A model generated the notes under the pieces. It made no database searches and was not told the DNA's origin. It saw only the letters and a program-made list of their open reading frames with translations. From NCBI RefSeq assembly GCF_000765475.1, contig NZ_JRHO01000014.1, positions 389,687-453,686 of the forward strand: a stretch of 64,000 nucleotides of DNA. The letters run 5' to 3'. The DNA is from Methanococcoides methylutens (GTDB lineage Archaea; Halobacteriota; Methanosarcinia; Methanosarcinales; Methanosarcinaceae). Positions 14,473-43,444 of the stretch are shown here, in pieces. The translations under genes and the position numbers were made by a program. Numbering within the stretch: the first letter of the stretch is position 1; each line of letters opens with the position of its first letter.

Positions 14473-15003
14473 ATGAAGAATATGACAAGACCTAATTTGT
14501 TAAACAGAAAACTTCGAAGAAATGACGAAGGCCAGGTAACAATCGATTACCTTATGGGAATTACCATATTCATTGTTGCATTATTTTTCATATTCCAGTA
14601 TTCAGCAGGTTTATTTACACCATTCCAGTCCAATTCTGATGAAGTAACACTTGTTGCTGACCGTGTTGCTACATCCATCACTGAGAAGGAGATCAGTGCG
14701 GGAAACATCAATACACCAAATTTGATCGATGGAAACAAGACAAACGATTATTTTAAAAATCAACTTAACCTATTAACTAGCGGTTATGATACTGAGGTCA
14801 CAAATTTGGGATTGCAGGGACGGTATCACCAATATAATCTTAATGTGACGTTAGAGAACCTAGACAACAGTTCAGCAAACATAGCTGCTGGAAAACCACT
14901 TCCAACTTCAGGTAACATCGGTCAGACAAAGAGAATTGTCCTGATAGAAGATACAAAAACAGGAATTACTGAAAAGGGTATACTTTCAGTGAGGGTGTGG
15001 TAA
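14473..15003 (+). CDS. Pilin-like protein with class III signal peptide (DUF7287-like)
   Basis: The 176-residue protein has a basic N-terminus (RKLRRNDEG), the prepilin peptidase signature G|QVTIDYLMG and a 20-residue hydrophobic helix, then an extracellular domain. Cleavage after EG by a PibD/EppA-type peptidase is predicted. The signature and TPF-x-S segment after the helix resemble haloarchaeal DUF7287 proteins, from memory. SD AAAGGA lies close to the ATG. The next gene starts two bases after its stop. It is the only member of the cluster with a canonical class III cleavage site, so it may be the main pilin-like subunit. Confidence 0.68.
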   Translation: MKNMTRPNLLNRKLRRNDEGQVTIDYLMGITIFIVALFFIFQYSAGLFTPFQSNSDEVTLVADRVATSITEKEISAGNINTPNLIDGNKTNDYFKNQLNLLTSGYDTEVTNLGLQGRYHQYNLNVTLENLDNSSANIAAGKPLPTSGNIGQTKRIVLIEDTKTGITEKGILSVRVW

Positions 15004-15004
15004 A

Positions 15005-15640
15005 ATGAGATATCAAAAAATATTTGATATCAGAAACGACCAGAATGCACAGATGCATACCCTTGAAGCCATAATGGCTGCAACATTAATGGTAGTTATA
15101 CTCATATTTGCTGTCCAGGCAACTGCACTTACCCCACTTACCTCATCTACTGCAAATGCCCATATTGAATCCCAGATGTATACCATGGGCCAGGATATGC
15201 TGATGGCACTTGACCATACACCGCATGGGCAGAACTCTTCTGATCTGAAAGAAGCAATTCTTATCTGGAATGGTGAGACGTACACATGGAATAATACCAT
15301 CTATAAATCCAATGATGATGAAAATAGCCCGCTAGAAGGACCAGTTGTGGATCTGCTGGATCACATTTTAGTGAAGAAGGGAATTGCACATAACGTTGAG
15401 TTTTCCTACAGTACAGTTTCAGGCTCCGATAACTACTTTGGATACAACGAGGGACCTAAAAATTATTACATATTCAATGGACAACCTTCTGATAATGCCG
15501 TCATTGTCTCAAGAAAAGTATTACTTTCAGATTCGGATGTTGGAGCATTATATGAAGATACCACTGGCATACCGGATATTGATGATACAACTGCATTATA
15601 CAATATCGTAGATGTAAGACTTACTTTATGGCGTATGTAA
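15005..15640 (+). CDS. Pilin-like surface protein (DUF7288-like)
   Basis: The protein has 211 residues. NDQNAQMHTLEAIMAATLM leads into a hydrophobic helix and VQATALTPLTSST, closely following the plan of haloarchaeal DUF7288 proteins (GQAHTLEA...QATAVTPLTAST). One N-terminal anchor, with about 165 residues predicted outside. No canonical cleavage glycine directly before the helix. It lies tightly in the operon and probably works with the DUF7287-like and DUF7261-like neighbours. Confidence 0.65.
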   Translation: MRYQKIFDIRNDQNAQMHTLEAIMAATLMVVILIFAVQATALTPLTSSTANAHIESQMYTMGQDMLMALDHTPHGQNSSDLKEAILIWNGETYTWNNTIYKSNDDENSPLEGPVVDLLDHILVKKGIAHNVEFSYSTVSGSDNYFGYNEGPKNYYIFNGQPSDNAVIVSRKVLLSDSDVGALYEDTTGIPDIDDTTALYNIVDVRLTLWRM

Positions 15641-15660
15641 AATAAATAAGAGATGTTAAT

Positions 15661-16485
15661 ATGAGAAAATTTGACGATTCCGCACAATTGCTTTTACTTG
15701 CTGCATTTGCCATAGGGTTCACTCTGGTCATAACAACCATAATGTTGAACAATGTCATCTATGCAAGCAACATGGCATCGGAATCAACCACTGATATTAG
15801 CAGTTACGACATCTCAAATGTTGCCCAGATGACAGACGAAGCTACAAAAGCTGCATACAACAATAACAGTAAAGCTGAATTTACCGAATATATGAACAGC
15901 TATGCAAATGAAGTTACAGCCATGTATGCTTTCCGTGGACTTTCCTTATCTTTTGATAATAGCTCTCTTGTTGACCCATATTTTACGAAAAGTGGGCTAT
16001 ATGGGGGGGAATCTGACTGGATCGTCGTCAAAAATGTAAACCGTACAGATGAATTCACTATTGAACTTAATGATACCTCCAAACTCGGAAATGCATCGAA
16101 TGCATATGAGGTTCAAGTCATTAATCAATCCGGAACAACATGGCTCATGAAAGTCTACAATGATAGTGTTAATATTAATATAACTGTCAATAATAATACA
16201 CATCAAGAACCACTTTATGCATATATGCGTTTGAACATTACTGGAAAAGAGATCGATGGCGACACATACGATTTTAAGTTCGACACATCTACAACAACTG
16301 ACCCATACAAAATCAAATTTGTGAACTCAAGCAATGCTATGGGGTATTATACTATCTCCGGAGTACTTGATGATGATGAACAAACTTCATTTGTCGAAAA
16401 AAGATCATGGGTCACCAATGCAACAATAAGCCTCTCATCCAATAATAACAAAATTAACTTATCAATTCCAGTCACAGTACCATGA
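15661..16485 (+). CDS. Pilin-like surface protein (DUF7261-like)
   Basis: This 274-residue protein begins MRKFDDSAQLLLLAAFAIG, a short polar start followed by a hydrophobic helix to about residue 33, matching the DDRGQLLLVGALAL pattern of DUF7261. The remainder is a Ser/Thr/Asn-rich extracellular domain with many N-x-S/T sites, suitable for archaeal N-glycosylation. It is membrane-anchored with the bulk outside. Operon context supports assembly with the adjacent pilin-like proteins. Confidence 0.62.
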   Translation: MRKFDDSAQLLLLAAFAIGFTLVITTIMLNNVIYASNMASESTTDISSYDISNVAQMTDEATKAAYNNNSKAEFTEYMNSYANEVTAMYAFRGLSLSFDNSSLVDPYFTKSGLYGGESDWIVVKNVNRTDEFTIELNDTSKLGNASNAYEVQVINQSGTTWLMKVYNDSVNINITVNNNTHQEPLYAYMRLNITGKEIDGDTYDFKFDTSTTTDPYKIKFVNSSNAMGYYTISGVLDDDEQTSFVEKRSWVTNATISLSSNNNKINLSIPVTVP

Positions 16486-16494
16486 GGATCGAAC

Positions 16495-16977
16495 ATGAAG
16501 CAAATATTCCATGACAATCGCGCAGTAGCTACCTCTGTTGGATTCATACTTACATTTTCGATAACAGTAATTACTTTTTTGCTTGTAATGAATGCATCCT
16601 ACAATATGATGGAGCAATCCGAGCAAACTGTCATGAGAGAAGAGTTTGAGATACATGGAAGCAATATTGCACTCCAGCTTACAGAAATGGAATCTCTCGT
16701 GAACATTACTACCAATGCAGGCGGAGAGGTTGGGGAAATAAGATATGAGATCCTGTTGCCCCTAAAAGTAGCTAATGAATATTATTATGTTGAATTTGTT
16801 GAATTTTCGGATAATGACAAAGAAATGATATTTGAGTCTCATGGACGTGATGAAACAAGAGTGAAAATACCTTTTGAGTTAAGAAATGTCAATATTAAGA
16901 ACACTACAATAAACAGTGCTTCAGGTGAACACTTTATGCTCTATAACAATACTGCAAAGATTATAGAGATACACTGA
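16495..16977 (+). CDS. Pilin-like surface protein (DUF7266-like)
   Basis: A 160-residue protein with the start FHDNRAVATSVGFILTFSI, a single hydrophobic helix and a following amphipathic segment (EQTVMREEFEIHGSNIALQL). This is the plan of DUF7266, whose members start with RAVSTTLGYVLT. SD GAGG lies 7 bp before the ATG. Short outer domain. Same operon, 10 bp after the previous gene. Confidence 0.62.
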   Translation: MKQIFHDNRAVATSVGFILTFSITVITFLLVMNASYNMMEQSEQTVMREEFEIHGSNIALQLTEMESLVNITTNAGGEVGEIRYEILLPLKVANEYYYVEFVEFSDNDKEMIFESHGRDETRVKIPFELRNVNIKNTTINSASGEHFMLYNNTAKIIEIH

Positions 16978-16990
16978 TTAACATGGGGAT

Positions 16991-17797
16991 ATGGTAGATA
17001 TGGCAAGAATAAACATACTTGATTCTGAAAATGCAGTATCTGAAGTCGTTGACGTAGTGCTCATACTCGGAATAATGCTAATTGCTATAACAGTGATCAG
17101 TGTTGCTGGTTTTCCTGCACTTGAAAACATGCAGGAAAGCGGACATACAGAGAACATAAGGCAAAGTTTCATCGTTTTAGGGGAGAACGTCAACAAAGTA
17201 GTTTTCAACGATGCCCCATCCCAGTCAGTAGAACTTAAGATGTATGGGGGTGGCATCTGGATAACTAGTAGTGAAAGCGACATTAATGTTACCATGCAGA
17301 CATGGAATAGTACTACGTCTACACCAGAAACTCGAAATTTTCCACTTCAGTCCATAGGTGAAATAAGAAATGAATTTGAAGGCAGAAGTATTTCTTATCA
17401 AAATACTGGTGTCTGGGCAAAGTATGAAACAGGTGAATCAATAGCTGTAAAAGATCCACAGTTCGTTAATTCTGACAAATTGCTCGTAATACCTGTAGTC
17501 AAAATAGGAATCACACCGGGAGGAAATGATGGACTTGCAGGAGAAGGATTGATCCGGGTAGTAGCCGAACAAGTTGAACAAGGAACGACTATCTACAAAT
17601 ATCAAAACGTTTCAGCTGTTGACATTAATGTAACGAGTCCATATTATGATGGATGGGGAAACTATCTGGACGAAACATTGGGGATGAAAGTAGATTTCAA
17701 CCATACCATTTCCACGGCATATGCCCAAAAGAACTACACTGATGAGAACATAGATGTATATATTGTAGTATCTCAGTTAGGAGCAAGTCTGGAATAA
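16991..17797 (+). CDS. Pilin-like surface protein (DUF7289-like), copy A
   Basis: The 268-residue protein has SENAVSEVVDVVLILGIML leading a hydrophobic helix, then a segment rich in beta strands with APSQSVELKMYGGGIWI, as in DUF7289 proteins. It is the first half of an A-B gene pair that was duplicated: copy A' survives only as a decayed remnant at 19363-19693. The start at 16991 follows a GGGGAT SD-like run; a second in-frame ATG at 17000 is possible. Confidence 0.62.
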   Translation: MVDMARINILDSENAVSEVVDVVLILGIMLIAITVISVAGFPALENMQESGHTENIRQSFIVLGENVNKVVFNDAPSQSVELKMYGGGIWITSSESDINVTMQTWNSTTSTPETRNFPLQSIGEIRNEFEGRSISYQNTGVWAKYETGESIAVKDPQFVNSDKLLVIPVVKIGITPGGNDGLAGEGLIRVVAEQVEQGTTIYKYQNVSAVDINVTSPYYDGWGNYLDETLGMKVDFNHTISTAYAQKNYTDENIDVYIVVSQLGASLE

Positions 17798-17811
17798 ACA
17801 GGGGAATCTCT

Positions 17812-19326
17812 ATGACAAATAATCAAAGATTATTCGAATCCTGCAAAGCAGTTTCTTCTGTTGTAGGATTGTTGCTCATGTATTCACTTGCCATAGTTGC
17901 CATTGGTGTAATTTTAGTCTATAATGTTCCTGTATTATCTGACATGCAGGACAATGCACAGGCACAAAAGATAGAACAGGGATTCACAATTATGGACTCG
18001 CGTATAAGTAAAGTAGCCCTTGGAGAGTCCCCGCTTCAGACAACCTCTGTTTCCCTTATGGGTGGCACTATAGATGTAAACAGTGATGATTCCGATGAAA
18101 GTAAGATAACCGTCATAATCATCAATAATTCAACGGTAGTAGAAAACTTCAGCTCCTCACTGGGAACCGTAGAATACAAAAATGGTGACCGAACGATAGC
18201 ATATGAAGGTGGCGGAATATGGTCAGATTATGGTTCAGAAGGTGGAACAGTTATGGTATCCCCTCCTGAATTCCACTACAATGGTGTAACACTTACCTTA
18301 CCAATCATGAACATAACAGGACAATCATCAGCAGGCGGTGAAGGAAATGTTGCTATTACAGTAGCTTCAGACAACGAACCAAGAATACTATATCCAATCT
18401 CAAATACTCTGAGAGAAAATCCTGTCGATCATGACAAAGTTGACGTCTACATCAAAAGTCAGTATTATAAAGCATGGGCTGATTATGCAAATTCTCTGAC
18501 CTATGCGAGTGCAACAGTGAATGATAGTACCAAAACAGCCACAATTCACTTCAGTACAGAACCTCCACAAGGAGAGTTCACCCCTATGCCTTATGAATTC
18601 AGAATGGGCATGGTGGATCCGTTAGAGGATGAACCAATCGAAGATTTCGTTTTTGACCTTGAAGCGATAAAAAAAGAAAATAAGACTGGAAATGGCTATC
18701 GTTTTAACCCTACTGACCAGGAAATTATTGCAACATCGGGAGACAGAACACTTTCATACATATTTAAGGCACAAGGTGGCATGGATGTCTGGGTCACATA
18801 TGTAGATGAGGAACTAGGTTACGCGGAAAAATGGGAGTGTGTTAATTCAATTCCAATAGAAGAGAAGGACATAGACATAGAAGTTATAAAAAATGAAGGG
18901 AAAAAGAATGAGAAAATTGAAGTGATTCCAATAAAATCAGAATATGTGCAACTTAATATGACAGATTCAACTTTCAAAATGAGATATGTTGATCAACATA
19001 CAGGCAGTTATTATAATGACTATAATACAAAGGAACCGGACTTTTCCTGGAATCTTACCGGACCTACAACTGAATTACCAAACTATGAAATCAAGTATTA
19101 TAATGAATCATTATCAATAAATGACCTGACCCAACATTACTTCAAACTATTGACAAAGGATGGATCAATTATAGTCCGTACAAATGAACGCCCAAAGAAT
19201 GGCGGAGATTTGAAGGAGACCGTGGACTATGATACATCTACCCTCACTCTAAATTATAAGGGACTTGGTAATTACCTTACCTACCTGCACGTCACAGAAA
19301 ATAAGCTGGATGTTACTTTAGAATAA
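17812..19326 (+). CDS. Large pilin-like surface protein (DUF7289-like), copy B
   Basis: This 504-residue protein starts SCKAVSSVVGLLLMYSLAIV, an anchor helix, then a long extracellular part. The region after the anchor (KIEQGFTIMDSRISKVALGE, PLQTTSVSLMGGTIDV) matches copy A in plan. A C-terminal section of about 250 residues, absent from copy A, contains DVWVTYVDEELGYAEKW and LTHYF-type strands. It shares long near-identical stretches with copy B' (19709-21190). SD AGGGGAA precedes the ATG. No sortase, PGF-CTERM or other anchor signal at the C-terminus. Confidence 0.62.
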   Translation: MTNNQRLFESCKAVSSVVGLLLMYSLAIVAIGVILVYNVPVLSDMQDNAQAQKIEQGFTIMDSRISKVALGESPLQTTSVSLMGGTIDVNSDDSDESKITVIIINNSTVVENFSSSLGTVEYKNGDRTIAYEGGGIWSDYGSEGGTVMVSPPEFHYNGVTLTLPIMNITGQSSAGGEGNVAITVASDNEPRILYPISNTLRENPVDHDKVDVYIKSQYYKAWADYANSLTYASATVNDSTKTATIHFSTEPPQGEFTPMPYEFRMGMVDPLEDEPIEDFVFDLEAIKKENKTGNGYRFNPTDQEIIATSGDRTLSYIFKAQGGMDVWVTYVDEELGYAEKWECVNSIPIEEKDIDIEVIKNEGKKNEKIEVIPIKSEYVQLNMTDSTFKMRYVDQHTGSYYNDYNTKEPDFSWNLTGPTTELPNYEIKYYNESLSINDLTQHYFKLLTKDGSIIVRTNERPKNGGDLKETVDYDTSTLTLNYKGLGNYLTYLHVTENKLDVTLE

Positions 19327-19362
19327 TCATTAAAAGACAAAACAAGTATCAAACGGGGAATC

Positions 19363-19693
19363 TTTATTATAAGAAATCCCTGGATTGTTACTTCTGATGA
19401 CTTGCTAGTAGTACCTGCAGTCACAATATCAACTACTTATAGATTTGTAGGACAAGATCTGATCCCTGTAATAGCTAGCAAAAGAAGTAAGCAGGGGACT
19501 ATATATCAATTTTTTATTTAATACAATTCTAAAGAGTACATATTATAACAGATGTGAAGATTGTCTAAACGAAGCATTGGAAATTGGATCTTTAGATCAT
19601 ACTAATTCCACACTATATTCGTAAAAAAGATAAACACACTGGAGACATAGATGTATATATTATAAATACAGATTAATAATGTGTCTTGAATAA
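19363..19693 (+). pseudogene. Decayed remnant of a copy-A-type (DUF7289-like) pilin gene
   Basis: Reading through stops and frame shifts, this gap encodes segments that align in order with the C-terminal third of copy A: NPWIVTSDDLLVVPAVTI against DPQFVNSDKLLVIPVVKI, QGTIYQF against QGTTIYKYQ, YYNRCEDCLNEALEIG against YYDGWGNYLDETLGM, and DIDVYII against NIDVYIV. It ends with a GTCTTGAATAA stop equivalent to copy A's GTCTGGAATAA, and lies 15 bp before copy B', just as copy A lies 14 bp before copy B. The N-terminal two thirds are deleted. The SD-like CGGGGAATCT at 19354-19363 is what is left of the upstream junction. Confidence 0.8.
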
Positions 19694-19708
19694 AAGGGGA
19701 TATAGCTT

Positions 19709-21190
19709 ATGAGAGATAAACAAAGTTTATTCGAATCCTGCGAAGCAGTTTCAGCTGTTGTCGGATTTATGCTCGCGTTTTCACTCGCCATAGTTGCCAT
19801 TAGTGCGATGCTGGTATATAGTGTACCTGTAATTTTCGATATGCAGGACTATGCACAGGTACAAAGAGTAGAACAAGGCTTCACAATTCTGGACTCACGA
19901 ATAAGTAAAGTAGCCCTTGGAGAATCCCCGCTTCAGACAACTTCTGTTTCCCTTATGGGTGGGACTGTCGATGTGAACAGTGATGATTCCGACGAAAGTA
20001 AGATAACCATTATTATCACCAATAATTCGATGGTCATAGATGAATTCAACTGCTCACTGGGAACCATAGAATACAAAAATAATGATCGAACGGTAGCATA
20101 TGAAGGTGGCGGAGTATGGTCAGATTATGGATCCGAAGGTGGAACAGTTATGATATCCCCTCCCGAATTCCACTATAATGGTGTTACACTTACCTTACCA
20201 ATAATTGATCTCAATGGACAGTCATCATCAAGTGGTGATGGAGATATTGATATTACAGTTACTTCAGACAATGAGCCAACAATACTATATCCAATCCCAA
20301 ATAGTCCAAGAGAAAATCCTGTCACTTATGAACAAATTGATGTTTACATTAAAAGCCAGTATTATAAGGCCTGGGCTGATTATGCAGATTCTCTTACCTA
20401 TGCAAGTGCAACAGGGATTGATAGTAACAAAACAGCCATTATTCACTTTTGTACAGAACCTCCACAGGGAACATTCGATATGCCTTATGAGTTCAGAGTG
20501 GGAATGGTTAACGCATCAGAGGAAAAACCAATCTATGACCTCCATTTTTATCTTGAAGCAGCAGGATCTAACCATCAATTTAGTCCAGCTGATCAAGAAA
20601 TAGTTGCAACAGCCGGCTCCAGGACACTTTCATATATATTCAAAAAGGAAAACGGCATTCATGTATGGGTCACATATGTTGATACGGAAGTCGGTTACGC
20701 AGAAAAGTGGTACTGTGTAAACCCAATCCCGATATTAGAGAAAGAAATAGAAGTGGTAGAGCTGGATAAGGATGGAAATGTTAAAAAAGTGAAAACGGTA
20801 GATAAACAATATGCTAATCTCAACCTAACAGATGATTCATTCTATATGAAATATAAGGACGATCAAGGCACTTATTATGATGAATATGATTCAGTTAGCC
20901 CGGACTTTTCCTGGAATCTTACCGGACCTACAACTGAATTACCAAACTATGAAATCGAATATAATAGTAATAACACATTAACAATAAATGACCTTACCCA
21001 ACATTACATTAAACTAATGACAAAAGATGGATCAATTAAATTCCGCACAAATGTTAACCCAAAAGATGGAACAATGCAGGATACCGTGGACTATGATACA
21101 TCTAAGCTTATTTTAAATTATGATCCGTTGGGTAATTACATTACCTACCTACACGTTACAGAAAATGAACTGGATGTTACTATAGATTAA
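19709..21190 (+). CDS. Large pilin-like surface protein (DUF7289-like), copy B'
   Basis: The 493-residue paralogue of copy B has the same anchor (SCEAVSAVVGFMLAFSLAIV) and order of segments. The first 250 residues and the C-terminal 110 are very similar; the centre (about residues 270-390) has diverged, with a different Lys/Glu/Asp-rich insert. A run of 57 identical bases (19036-19092 and 20900-20956) points to recent gene conversion. SD AAGGGGATAT precedes the ATG. Last gene of the operon; a hairpin terminator follows. Confidence 0.62.
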   Translation: MRDKQSLFESCEAVSAVVGFMLAFSLAIVAISAMLVYSVPVIFDMQDYAQVQRVEQGFTILDSRISKVALGESPLQTTSVSLMGGTVDVNSDDSDESKITIIITNNSMVIDEFNCSLGTIEYKNNDRTVAYEGGGVWSDYGSEGGTVMISPPEFHYNGVTLTLPIIDLNGQSSSSGDGDIDITVTSDNEPTILYPIPNSPRENPVTYEQIDVYIKSQYYKAWADYADSLTYASATGIDSNKTAIIHFCTEPPQGTFDMPYEFRVGMVNASEEKPIYDLHFYLEAAGSNHQFSPADQEIVATAGSRTLSYIFKKENGIHVWVTYVDTEVGYAEKWYCVNPIPILEKEIEVVELDKDGNVKKVKTVDKQYANLNLTDDSFYMKYKDDQGTYYDEYDSVSPDFSWNLTGPTTELPNYEIEYNSNNTLTINDLTQHYIKLMTKDGSIKFRTNVNPKDGTMQDTVDYDTSKLILNYDPLGNYITYLHVTENELDVTID

Positions 21191-21221
21191 ACCTTAAAAG
21201 AATAAACAAAAAATTCAAACC

Positions 21222-21249
21222 GGGTCATAGAACACTCAACCTATGACCC
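21222..21249. terminator. Bidirectional hairpin terminator
   Basis: GGGTCATAG (21222-21230) and CTATGACCC (21241-21249) pair perfectly around a 10-nt loop, between two convergent genes. An A/T-rich stretch with TATTTTT follows on the plus strand, and the minus strand reads into a T-rich run as well. Confidence 0.7.
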
Positions 21250-21271: not shown

Positions 21272-21847
21272 TCACTCAACGTCCGAGACTTCCGTATACT
21301 CGGCAGTATAGCTCTCTCCTGCACCGATCTGTGCTTCAAGAGCTGCTACCAGCGCAAGGAAGTAGAATGGTGTTGTCAGTAAAGAACCAACATAGACCAT
21401 GCCGCCTATTGCGGTGATCACCCACAGGATGATAGCCAGAACAAGGGTGTCGACAAAGTTGTTCTTGGAGATCTCAATACTTTCTTTTATGGAATCCATT
21501 ACGCCGTATCCCCTTATGATAAGGAGAGGGAGTGCATAGATCATAAGTATTGAAAGCACGATTCCCGGAAGTACCAGGAACATAAATCCTATTCCCACTA
21601 TAATAGCGAATATGATAAAGAACACCCAGCTCTTTATGAAATTGTTGAAACCTTCGAACAGGTCATTGATCTCAACCTTTTCACCACCCATTCCTTTTAC
21701 GGCCATGTAAGCAAGACCGTAGAATAGCGGTGCAATAGTCACAATGAATATGGAGCCTATAAATGCTATCAATGTAGCTACTACATAAGCTGCAATGTTC
21801 TCTTTGAAAACATCCCATGCTCGCTTGAATATTTCTTCATAATCCAT
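21272..21847 (-). CDS. Multi-pass membrane protein of unknown function
   Basis: From the ATG preceded by GAGGTGATATT the protein has 191 residues; a longer frame start 12 codons upstream overlaps this SD and is rejected. About four to five hydrophobic helices are visible, with a polar loop (GGEKVEINDLFEGFNNF) after the second. The plan (MDYEEIFKRAWDVFKENIAAYV, then DSIKESIEISKNNFVDTLVLAI) resembles YciC/DUF975-type integral membrane proteins, but I cannot assign a function. Adjacent MscS is in the same direction, 101 bp upstream. Confidence 0.65.
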   Translation of the reverse strand: MDYEEIFKRAWDVFKENIAAYVVATLIAFIGSIFIVTIAPLFYGLAYMAVKGMGGEKVEINDLFEGFNNFIKSWVFFIIFAIIVGIGFMFLVLPGIVLSILMIYALPLLIIRGYGVMDSIKESIEISKNNFVDTLVLAIILWVITAIGGMVYVGSLLTTPFYFLALVAALEAQIGAGESYTAEYTEVSDVE

Positions 21848-30382: not shown

Positions 30383-30886
30383 ATGAATAATCAAATTGTC
30401 CTTGAAAATTTAAAATTTATGCATGAAATTTTATTTGAACAATATAAGTCACAACAAGAAATATCTCTAAATATGGAAAGTAAAGGGACAAATATTGTTA
30501 TTTTCTCAGGAGTTTTAATAGGGTTGTTAATTAGCAGTTTTGCTTCATTAAAAGGAGATGTAGAATTTGGAAATAATTTGTACTTATTAATTTCCTTTTC
30601 AGTTATCTCATTCGTTTCTTCAATACTTTTCTCTTTACTTGTGTATATAAGCCGTTTTGTGTCGTATGAAATTGATTCAGATTATTTCATAAATGAATGT
30701 ATTAAGCAAGAATCAATAGATAAAATAAGAGCTACACTTTCATTTGATATTGGGGAAAAAATAGATGAAAATTATAAAATTAATGTTAAAAAGAGAAATT
30801 ATTTAAGCATTGCTTATCTTTGTTTTTTTGCTGGCACTATTTTTGCAATGTTTTTTATACTGATGATATTTGGAAAATCAATATGA
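30383..30886 (+). CDS. AT-rich orphan membrane protein
   Basis: The 167-residue protein has an amphipathic N-terminal helix, then hydrophobic helices at about 36-53, 65-91 and 143-165. The arrangement (helices flanked by K/N-rich juxtamembrane segments, KKRNYLSIAYLCFFAGTIF) recalls the small membrane effectors of SLATT or Pycsar type, but the match is only of form. The gene is far richer in A+T than its neighbours, pointing to recent arrival. SD GAAGGT precedes the ATG. Confidence 0.5.
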   Translation: MNNQIVLENLKFMHEILFEQYKSQQEISLNMESKGTNIVIFSGVLIGLLISSFASLKGDVEFGNNLYLLISFSVISFVSSILFSLLVYISRFVSYEIDSDYFINECIKQESIDKIRATLSFDIGEKIDENYKINVKKRNYLSIAYLCFFAGTIFAMFFILMIFGKSI

Positions 30887-31643: not shown

Positions 31644-32225
31644 ATGATTCGCATGCCTAAAGCTGCAGAAGCTATTTTTGCATCAGCAATACTTGCTAGT
31701 ATAATTTTTATCTATATAGCAGCATTTAAGCCAAGATCTTTCTTGATAAATGAATCTATTAATGACTATCCACTTATACCTCTTTATGTAATTGTTTTTA
31801 GTGTAATTGGTGGATTAATGTATTTTTTTGCTTCTACTGCAGGCGAATGGAAAGTAAAAAAAGAAAAAATAAAAGATGATCAGAACAAATTAGATGAATT
31901 CAATGATACGCCTTTTCTTGATAAATTAAAGGATTTTGATATTGAAAGAAAGGGTTTAAGGGTAGTAGCTGCTCCTCTAATGGCAATTGGAATATATCTG
32001 TTATTTGATTTGATATTTTTTGATTTTAATATTACAACTGAACAGCCAAACATCAGCTTAACTAATTCAACCTTACAAGATGTGATTAACGCAATCGAAA
32101 CTACTAATGATACTGAAAAGATGATTCAAATAAAAGCAGGCATATCTTTTCTGGTTGGAGCTTTTGTAAAACAATTTCTTGATTTAATTCAAGCATTAGC
32201 TGAGGGAATAGGAATGAAAAAATGA
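31644..32225 (+). CDS. Orphan membrane protein, 193 residues
   Basis: Not recognised. Two N-terminal helices (about 7-27 and 46-63), a charged linker (EWKVKKEKIKDDQNK), a third helix near 109-127 and a C-terminal amphipathic or membrane segment (ISFLVGAFVKQFLDLIQAL). SD AAGGGGAG precedes the ATG. A TATA box (TTTTATATAATG, 31510-31521) predicts a leader of about 100 nt that contains CAGCTG-flanked pairing. Base composition is AT-rich like the rest of the island. Confidence 0.5.
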   Translation: MIRMPKAAEAIFASAILASIIFIYIAAFKPRSFLINESINDYPLIPLYVIVFSVIGGLMYFFASTAGEWKVKKEKIKDDQNKLDEFNDTPFLDKLKDFDIERKGLRVVAAPLMAIGIYLLFDLIFFDFNITTEQPNISLTNSTLQDVINAIETTNDTEKMIQIKAGISFLVGAFVKQFLDLIQALAEGIGMKK

Positions 32226-41734: not shown

Positions 41735-43444
41735 TCAAGAATGGTCGATGTACAATTCTCCTTCATTATACATCTCCAACCAATTCTTGAGTTGGTTTCC
41801 AGAAATTTGACTACTGGTGTTGTGGTCCCATGCATCCCCTACTACAGAATTATTCGTACCTAGTGGATAAAGAACCATCCATTCATCTGCTTCTTCGATG
41901 AAATATACTGGCGTACCGTTGTCGTCATAAGGATAATATGGCACACCAATCAGGACATTCAATTTAGCTGTCACCAAGTGTCGGAACATGGTATAAGTGT
42001 GCGGCTCATTATTATCCCCATTACCACTCATATTAACAATTGCAGCAGATTTACTATAAGTTACATCACCTACAGTTACTTCTTCAATTGACCAATTATC
42101 CCAATTTGTTTCCTTTTTCCAATAACCAAGACCTTCAACCATAACATCATATTCTGAATGATCGATACCGAAGTAATAGCTTAGGTCCTCATCCATCGCT
42201 ATGAACTCTCCGTAAGATGCAGTTACATTTCCAATATTGCAATACTGGCCCAGGATAACCTCTCCACTGGCATTATAAACCCAAACTTCACCTGGTTCAA
42301 ATATGCCATTGTCATCCACATTAATCGGATATTCACTAACAGACGTTCTGTTGTCTGAAACGTCCTGAATAGTAAGATTTACATTTCCTGTGTTTGTCAC
42401 ATTATAGGTCCATTCAACCGGATAACCAAACAATAGATATGGACCTATTGGTCCATCAACGTCATGACCATCAGTGAACTTCTCGATATCAATTGATGCA
42501 TTCACACCGAAGTAGTGACTCAGATCCTCATCGTGGACTAATTCATTATTATATGAAGCAGTGACGTTAGCAAAGTTCACATACTGACCTTCAGTAGCAA
42601 AACCGGATGCATTATAGACCCACACCTCACCAGGTTCAAAGACGCCATCACCATCATCACCAGAGATTGGATCTGCGCTGATAGAGGTTCTGTTATCGAA
42701 CAGATCAGGAACACTAAGATTCACATTACCAGTGTTGTTAACATAATAGGTCCACTCGACAGGAGAACCTGCAAGGATAGAAAGACCAGGGGCAGTATCG
42801 CTATCATGACCATTGGTATGCTTCTCAAGGTCAATATCGGGTGAAGCTTCGAAGACAGGTTCGGTAAAACCGAAGTAGTGGCTGTAATCTTCAGCATATA
42901 ACATAGTATTTCCATGGTAAGCTGTGACATTACCAATGTTAGAGTACTGACCTTCCTTGGTTATACCCGTAGCATTGTAAAGCCAGAACTCACCCGAATC
43001 AAGAACACCATTACCGTTAGCATCTCCACTTAAGTAAATTGGATCAACGGTGCTATCATTGTCTGAAACAACAACATTCTGAAGAGGCAGGTCACCGTTG
43101 TTGGCTACCTCATAAGTCCATTCGACCGTAGTTCCAGTCAGAAGCTCTAGACCGGGAGCAGTATCGCTGTCAGAACCATTCGTGGATTTCTCAATAGTGA
43201 TAGACACTTTATCGTCCTCAGTATCAGTTTCTCCGCCACCAACGAAACCACTGGACCTTGCCATACTAATTCCCCCATCCTTTGAGACGACAAAAGCACC
43301 CTCCCATTCAGAGTATTTACTCTCATGTCGATCATCTGTTGGATCGGGAGCAAGTCCCGGTGAATTAGTTGAAATACTTGTGAGACCACTCATTAGCAAA
43401 GTGATCATTAGTAGGATACCTAATGGTTTAATTATTGGATGCAT
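41735..43444 (-). CDS. Secreted surface protein with three DUF11-like repeats
   Basis: The 569-residue protein has a signal peptide (about residues 1-26), then three repeats of about 110 residues (near 81, 205 and 315) that each open with a IEK-x-T-x-G-x-D-x-D pattern, contain VEWTY, GEVWVYNA-type and GQY-x-N-x-x-NVTA strands and close with YFG. This is the conserved-repeat (DUF11/DUF7507) Ig-like fold of cell-surface proteins. The C-terminal 140 residues (VEGLGYWKKETNWDNW onward) are a different domain. There is no transmembrane helix or PGF-CTERM at the end, so it is released or held non-covalently. Many N-x-S/T sites. SD AAGGTGG precedes the ATG. Confidence 0.8.
   Translation of the reverse strand: MHPIIKPLGILLMITLLMSGLTSISTNSPGLAPDPTDDRHESKYSEWEGAFVVSKDGGISMARSSGFVGGGETDTEDDKVSITIEKSTNGSDSDTAPGLELLTGTTVEWTYEVANNGDLPLQNVVVSDNDSTVDPIYLSGDANGNGVLDSGEFWLYNATGITKEGQYSNIGNVTAYHGNTMLYAEDYSHYFGFTEPVFEASPDIDLEKHTNGHDSDTAPGLSILAGSPVEWTYYVNNTGNVNLSVPDLFDNRTSISADPISGDDGDGVFEPGEVWVYNASGFATEGQYVNFANVTASYNNELVHDEDLSHYFGVNASIDIEKFTDGHDVDGPIGPYLLFGYPVEWTYNVTNTGNVNLTIQDVSDNRTSVSEYPINVDDNGIFEPGEVWVYNASGEVILGQYCNIGNVTASYGEFIAMDEDLSYYFGIDHSEYDVMVEGLGYWKKETNWDNWSIEEVTVGDVTYSKSAAIVNMSGNGDNNEPHTYTMFRHLVTAKLNVLIGVPYYPYDDNGTPVYFIEEADEWMVLYPLGTNNSVVGDAWDHNTSSQISGNQLKNWLEMYNEGELYIDHS

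Follow-up and report, generated by a model that had tools for sequence, protein, structure and literature searches.

The space between two intact predicted minor-pilin genes of Methanococcoides methylutens, B and B', holds a dead fragment of a third gene, A, and the cassette to which these genes belong is an island of divergence between species. The best explanation, to which a probability of about 0.6 is assigned, is that a truncated tail of A was duplicated together with B, that both B copies were retained in the filament, and that the locus was later reshaped by gene conversion and by exchange of the cassette. The genes lie in a 64,000-nucleotide stretch of DNA, referred to here as the window. 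The duplication scar is an ordinary case of gene birth and death in a pilin family for which a tendency to duplicate has been described. More would hang on the divergence island: if correctly read, it suggests that methanogens switch a surface filament by recombination, with viruses, partner cells or attachment surfaces as possible drivers.

Gene content and predicted role

A and B are the last genes of a six-gene operon (DUF7287, DUF7288, DUF7261-like, DUF7266, A and B; Table 1). This arrangement is kept in most of the Methanosarcinaceae genomes examined and recurs in further families of the same order. The archaellum D/E-domain coiled-coil gene adjoins the cassette in many relatives, and past B' there is a membrane-protein gene at 21272. 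The DUF7289 profile (PF23960) matches A, B and B' with 98.6, 99.9 and 93.6 bits, and the DUF7308 profile (PF23985) matches B and B' with 49.3 and 53.3 bits, against a curated cut-off of 27 for each. A and B are distant paralogs, with 29% amino acid identity over 227 residues.

Table 1. Features of the cassette and its surroundings, in window coordinates
Feature	Coordinates	Strand	Evidence or remark
Archaellum D/E-domain coiled-coil protein, 728 aa	12251..14437	+	PF04659 1.7e-27; just upstream of cassette
DUF7287 pilin-like gene, first in cassette	14473..15003	+	Pfam PF23958 8.9e-38
DUF7288 pilin-like gene	15005..15640	+	Pfam PF23959 1.3e-44
DUF7261-like gene	15661..16485	+	PF23922 23.4 bits, below curated cut-off 27; orthologous position in relatives
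DUF7266 pilin-like gene	16495..16977	+	PF23928 3.4e-07
Gene A, DUF7289, predicted minor pilin, 268 aa	16991..17797	+	PF23960 5.4e-28; Pilin_N weak, 17.7 bits vs cut-off 25.2
Gene B, DUF7289 + DUF7308, large predicted minor pilin, 504 aa	17812..19326	+	PF23960 2.1e-28, PF23985 8.4e-13
B 3' flank	19327..19358	+	resembles B' 3' flank (21191-21224); score 32, shuffle p=0.003
Duplication junction	~19343-19358	+	inside B 3' flank
A' remnant, frame-broken copy of A nt 442-807	19355..19693	+	ends 15 bp before B' start
Gene B', DUF7289 + DUF7308, 493 aa, intact	19709..21190	+	dN/dS vs B ~0.4

The six-gene operon fits the minor-pilin set of an archaeal type IV pilus, with A and B as predicted minor pilins of a pilus-like filament. 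Additional evidence came from an AlphaFold model of B' (pLDDT 82), in which an N-terminal helix spanning residues 9-69 (61 residues) is followed by beta domains; as modelled, this long helix with beta domains is as expected for a pilin. A search of the PDB with the model gave no significant match, and a profile of B matched PDB pilins only with E values of 0.07-0.56. The model of A (pLDDT 48) was too poor for use. The cassette contains no gene for a secretion ATPase or TadC, and because the nearest such genes (T2SSE/T2SSF) lie ~28 kb upstream, the filament would be assembled in trans. Assembly genes are documented to act in trans in other euryarchaea (PMC4858521).

A decayed copy of A between B and B'

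A preliminary description of this DNA, made from the sequence, placed A, B, a remnant of A and B' in that order and proposed a tandem duplication with a dead A'. The open reading frames of A, B and B' are as it stated. The gap between B and B' (382 bases, 19327-19708) is collinear with the 3' half of A. Its local DNA alignment to A scores 196, far above dinucleotide shuffles of the sequence (31.6 +/- 4.5, maximum 54, n=1000), and its alignment to B or B' scores no better than chance. When the window was tiled against A, no tile other than those covering A itself or the gap scored above 49. The remnant thus aligns in order with the C-terminal part of A, as proposed, with 239 of 328 aligned bases identical (73%). 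It also keeps the stop context of A, and the next ATG follows at the 14/15-bp distance that had been described. The alignment contains 17 indel events, 15 of which are not multiples of 3, and stops occur in every frame, so the remnant is non-coding. A' is a pseudogene fragment, and the proposal of a tandem duplication with a dead A' is borne out.

The tree places the remnant beside the window's own A (UFboot 88), and the two have a loop length in common; other placements were not rejected by the AU test (p 0.12-0.14). The branch of the remnant (0.58) is longer than half the synonymous divergence between B and B' (dS/2 of 0.24).

Origin of the duplication

The junction bears on how the fragment arose. 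The 32 bases that follow B match the 3' flank of B', after which the sequence jumps directly into the middle of A, at about A nt 441. Since B-type 3' flank leads straight into mid-A, A' was probably born already truncated at its 5' end. A single tandem duplication that began within A and ended just past B, giving A-B-[A' fragment]-B', would explain the junction in one step. On this mechanism, the full A' protein would never have been made, or would have been lost early, with decay of the fragment following, and the leftover A' would place a translation-start region in front of B'.

The preliminary description instead read the locus as a complete A-B unit that was duplicated and then lost A'. 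Its duplication and its dead A' stand, but the junction is explained more simply without a once-intact A'. Duplication of the full unit, with later deletion of the 5' half of A', accounts for the conserved A-B order, stop context and spacing, and it retains some probability because the match between the B and B' flanks is short (p=0.003) and AT-rich. Such a history is nevertheless unlikely: it takes two events, the deletion having to stop right where the B 3' flank lies, and neither A' nt 1-441 nor the region upstream of A has left a trace.

Retention and probable partial homogenisation of B and B'

Amino acid identity between B and B' is 69% and nucleotide identity 80%, and the two are sisters in the tree with a support of 1.0. 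Both are intact and, as estimated from substitution rates (dN/dS ~0.4), under purifying selection; for these reasons, both are probably incorporated into one filament, whether as alternative large subunits or as extra ones. Synonymous identity between them is patchy (p=0.018) and includes an identical run of 57 bp (p=0.001); neither the patchiness nor a long identical run occurs in the three congener B pairs tested. Moreover, the N-terminus of B bears residues that congeners usually have in their second B copy, a feature left unexplained by one simple, recent duplication. Patchy synonymous identity and second-copy residues together favour some gene conversion, and exchange of patches after the duplication seems to have homogenised the two copies in part. 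Segment trees did not resolve the orthology of B and B' with the congener copies, and a scan of genome contigs with B' as query found no relatives.

Patchy conversion is also what would be expected of antigenic or phase variation, in which silent cassettes feed an expressed surface gene. This reading is highly improbable here, since B and B' are the sole carriers of DUF7308 in the genome and the only DUF7289 match outside A, B and B' lies at one remote locus, leaving no silent-copy repertoire elsewhere; in addition, each B copy has its own start region and a full reading frame. The preliminary description had likened the divergence of B and B' to that of variable surface proteins. The divergence and the pilin-like surface identity hold, but the patchy homogenisation and the absence of a silent cassette repertoire in the genome show that the comparison is incomplete.

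Congeners and the age of the duplication

Among the nine Methanococcoides genomes with a readable locus, six, including the present one, have a B-B' pair and three have a single B. A comparison with relatives for an intact A' had been proposed; none of the nine loci has one. Evidence for an older event came from Methanococcoides vulcani, where the spacer between the two B copies contains a shorter stretch of the A tail (A nt 645-750) scoring 57, above all 6000 shuffles. Within the 17-kb locus, no other non-self match exceeds 37. Three further congeners have a spacer homologous to that of M. vulcani. A DNA profile of A found nothing in the congener spacers, and the short A traces there come from pairwise tests alone.

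Given the trace in M. vulcani and the homologous spacers, the A tail and B were duplicated either once, in an ancestor, with conversion here, or twice. A single old A-B duplication in the ancestor of the six species, with A' decaying in parallel and conversion in the present genome mimicking recent sisters, is a serious though somewhat less probable alternative to the preferred reading. The M. vulcani spacer and its three homologues speak for such antiquity, as do the second-copy residues of B, the patchiness of B-B' identity and the remnant branch exceeding dS/2. Conversely, the best position of the remnant in the tree is next to the window's own A, whose loop length it shares, the junction differs (A nt ~441 here, ~645 in M. 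vulcani), and the short spacer traces were missed by the profile. This position of the remnant favours a later event. The two readings overlap in that both accept duplication of the A tail with B, and they differ in its age.

Other variants of the locus were seen in relatives. The entire six-gene operon is tandemly duplicated in two species of another genus, probably Methanolobus (loci L061 and L062). Gene A of locus L057 and gene B of locus L059 are otherwise intact and carry one in-frame TAG each; pyrrolysine use is known in the family of these genomes, and the codons could be read through or mark pseudogenes. In locus L058, what directly follows the single B is, by eye, the apparent end of a TnpB-type insertion-sequence gene on the other strand, with an open reading frame of 373 aa.

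An island of divergence and probable exchange of the cassette

Against the nearest relative among the genomes compared (G001), dS over 58 kb is mostly 0.02-0.5, with most genes at ~0.1, but it rises to between 0.8 and >1.5 in every cassette gene from DUF7287 to B' (14473-21190); the dS tables include overlapping antisense frames, which leave this contrast unaffected. On one flank, dS is 0.02-0.04 in the ATP synthase genes and 0.11 in the D/E-domain gene, and on the other it is 0.17-0.20. A second, close pair of genomes (G007 and G010) behaves similarly: dS is at most 0.33 in 56 of 62 frames, and cassette genes account for the six top values (0.60-2.38). The reverse pattern is found between G001 and G007, where the flanking D/E-domain gene has a dS of 1.32, yet DUF7287 through the first B copy have only 0.19-0.45; the second B copy is not similar (dS 1.00).

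Faster evolution of the proteins was discarded as a sole cause of the island, since synonymous divergence jumps from ~0.1 to ~1 at its edges. The island together with the discordantly shared alleles makes exchange of the whole cassette between species by recombination, presumably in the conserved flanks, the simplest reading. The six- or seven-gene cassette is thus probably an allelic-exchange island in Methanococcoides, in which flank recombination would switch the filament type and duplication of B would add variation. The analogy with variable surface proteins is incomplete in this respect too, as variability between species appears to come mostly from whole-cassette exchange.

Elsewhere in the window, a 569-aa open reading frame at 41735-43444 is much less conserved than its neighbours (67% to G001, 44% to G010), and those at 30383-30886 and 31644-32225 have no reciprocal match in the compared stretches of G001, G007 and G010, of which G007 covers part of the region.

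Comparison with known systems

The family arCOG02911 comprises minor pilins of ~250-550 aa that are "prone to duplications" (Makarova et al. 2016, PMC4858521), and DUF7289 probably corresponds to it. Given that description, duplication of such a minor pilin is of an already known kind. The genes described here are likewise pilin-like, within 250-550 aa, duplication-prone and in a set with other predicted pilins; the likeness is one of size range and duplication habit, and in the present genome the ATPase and TadC genes lie apart from the set. Haloferax volcanii, used as a control genome, also has DUF7287, DUF7289 and DUF7308, the genes for which may lie in a PilB4-type locus. A has weak N-terminal similarity to the Sulfolobus bindosome pilin BasA, although membership was rejected (NCBIfam NF053669, 22.7 bits against a cut-off of 230).

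The proposed switching of filament type by cassette exchange is comparable to surface-type switching in bacteria. Among archaea, a parallel is provided by the VARTIG hypervariable Ig modules of Thermococcales, described as diversified by recombination between relatives (PMC8416519). The proteins are different ones, and what is exchanged there is a C-terminal region of one large protein, whereas in Methanococcoides a block of six or seven genes would be exchanged.
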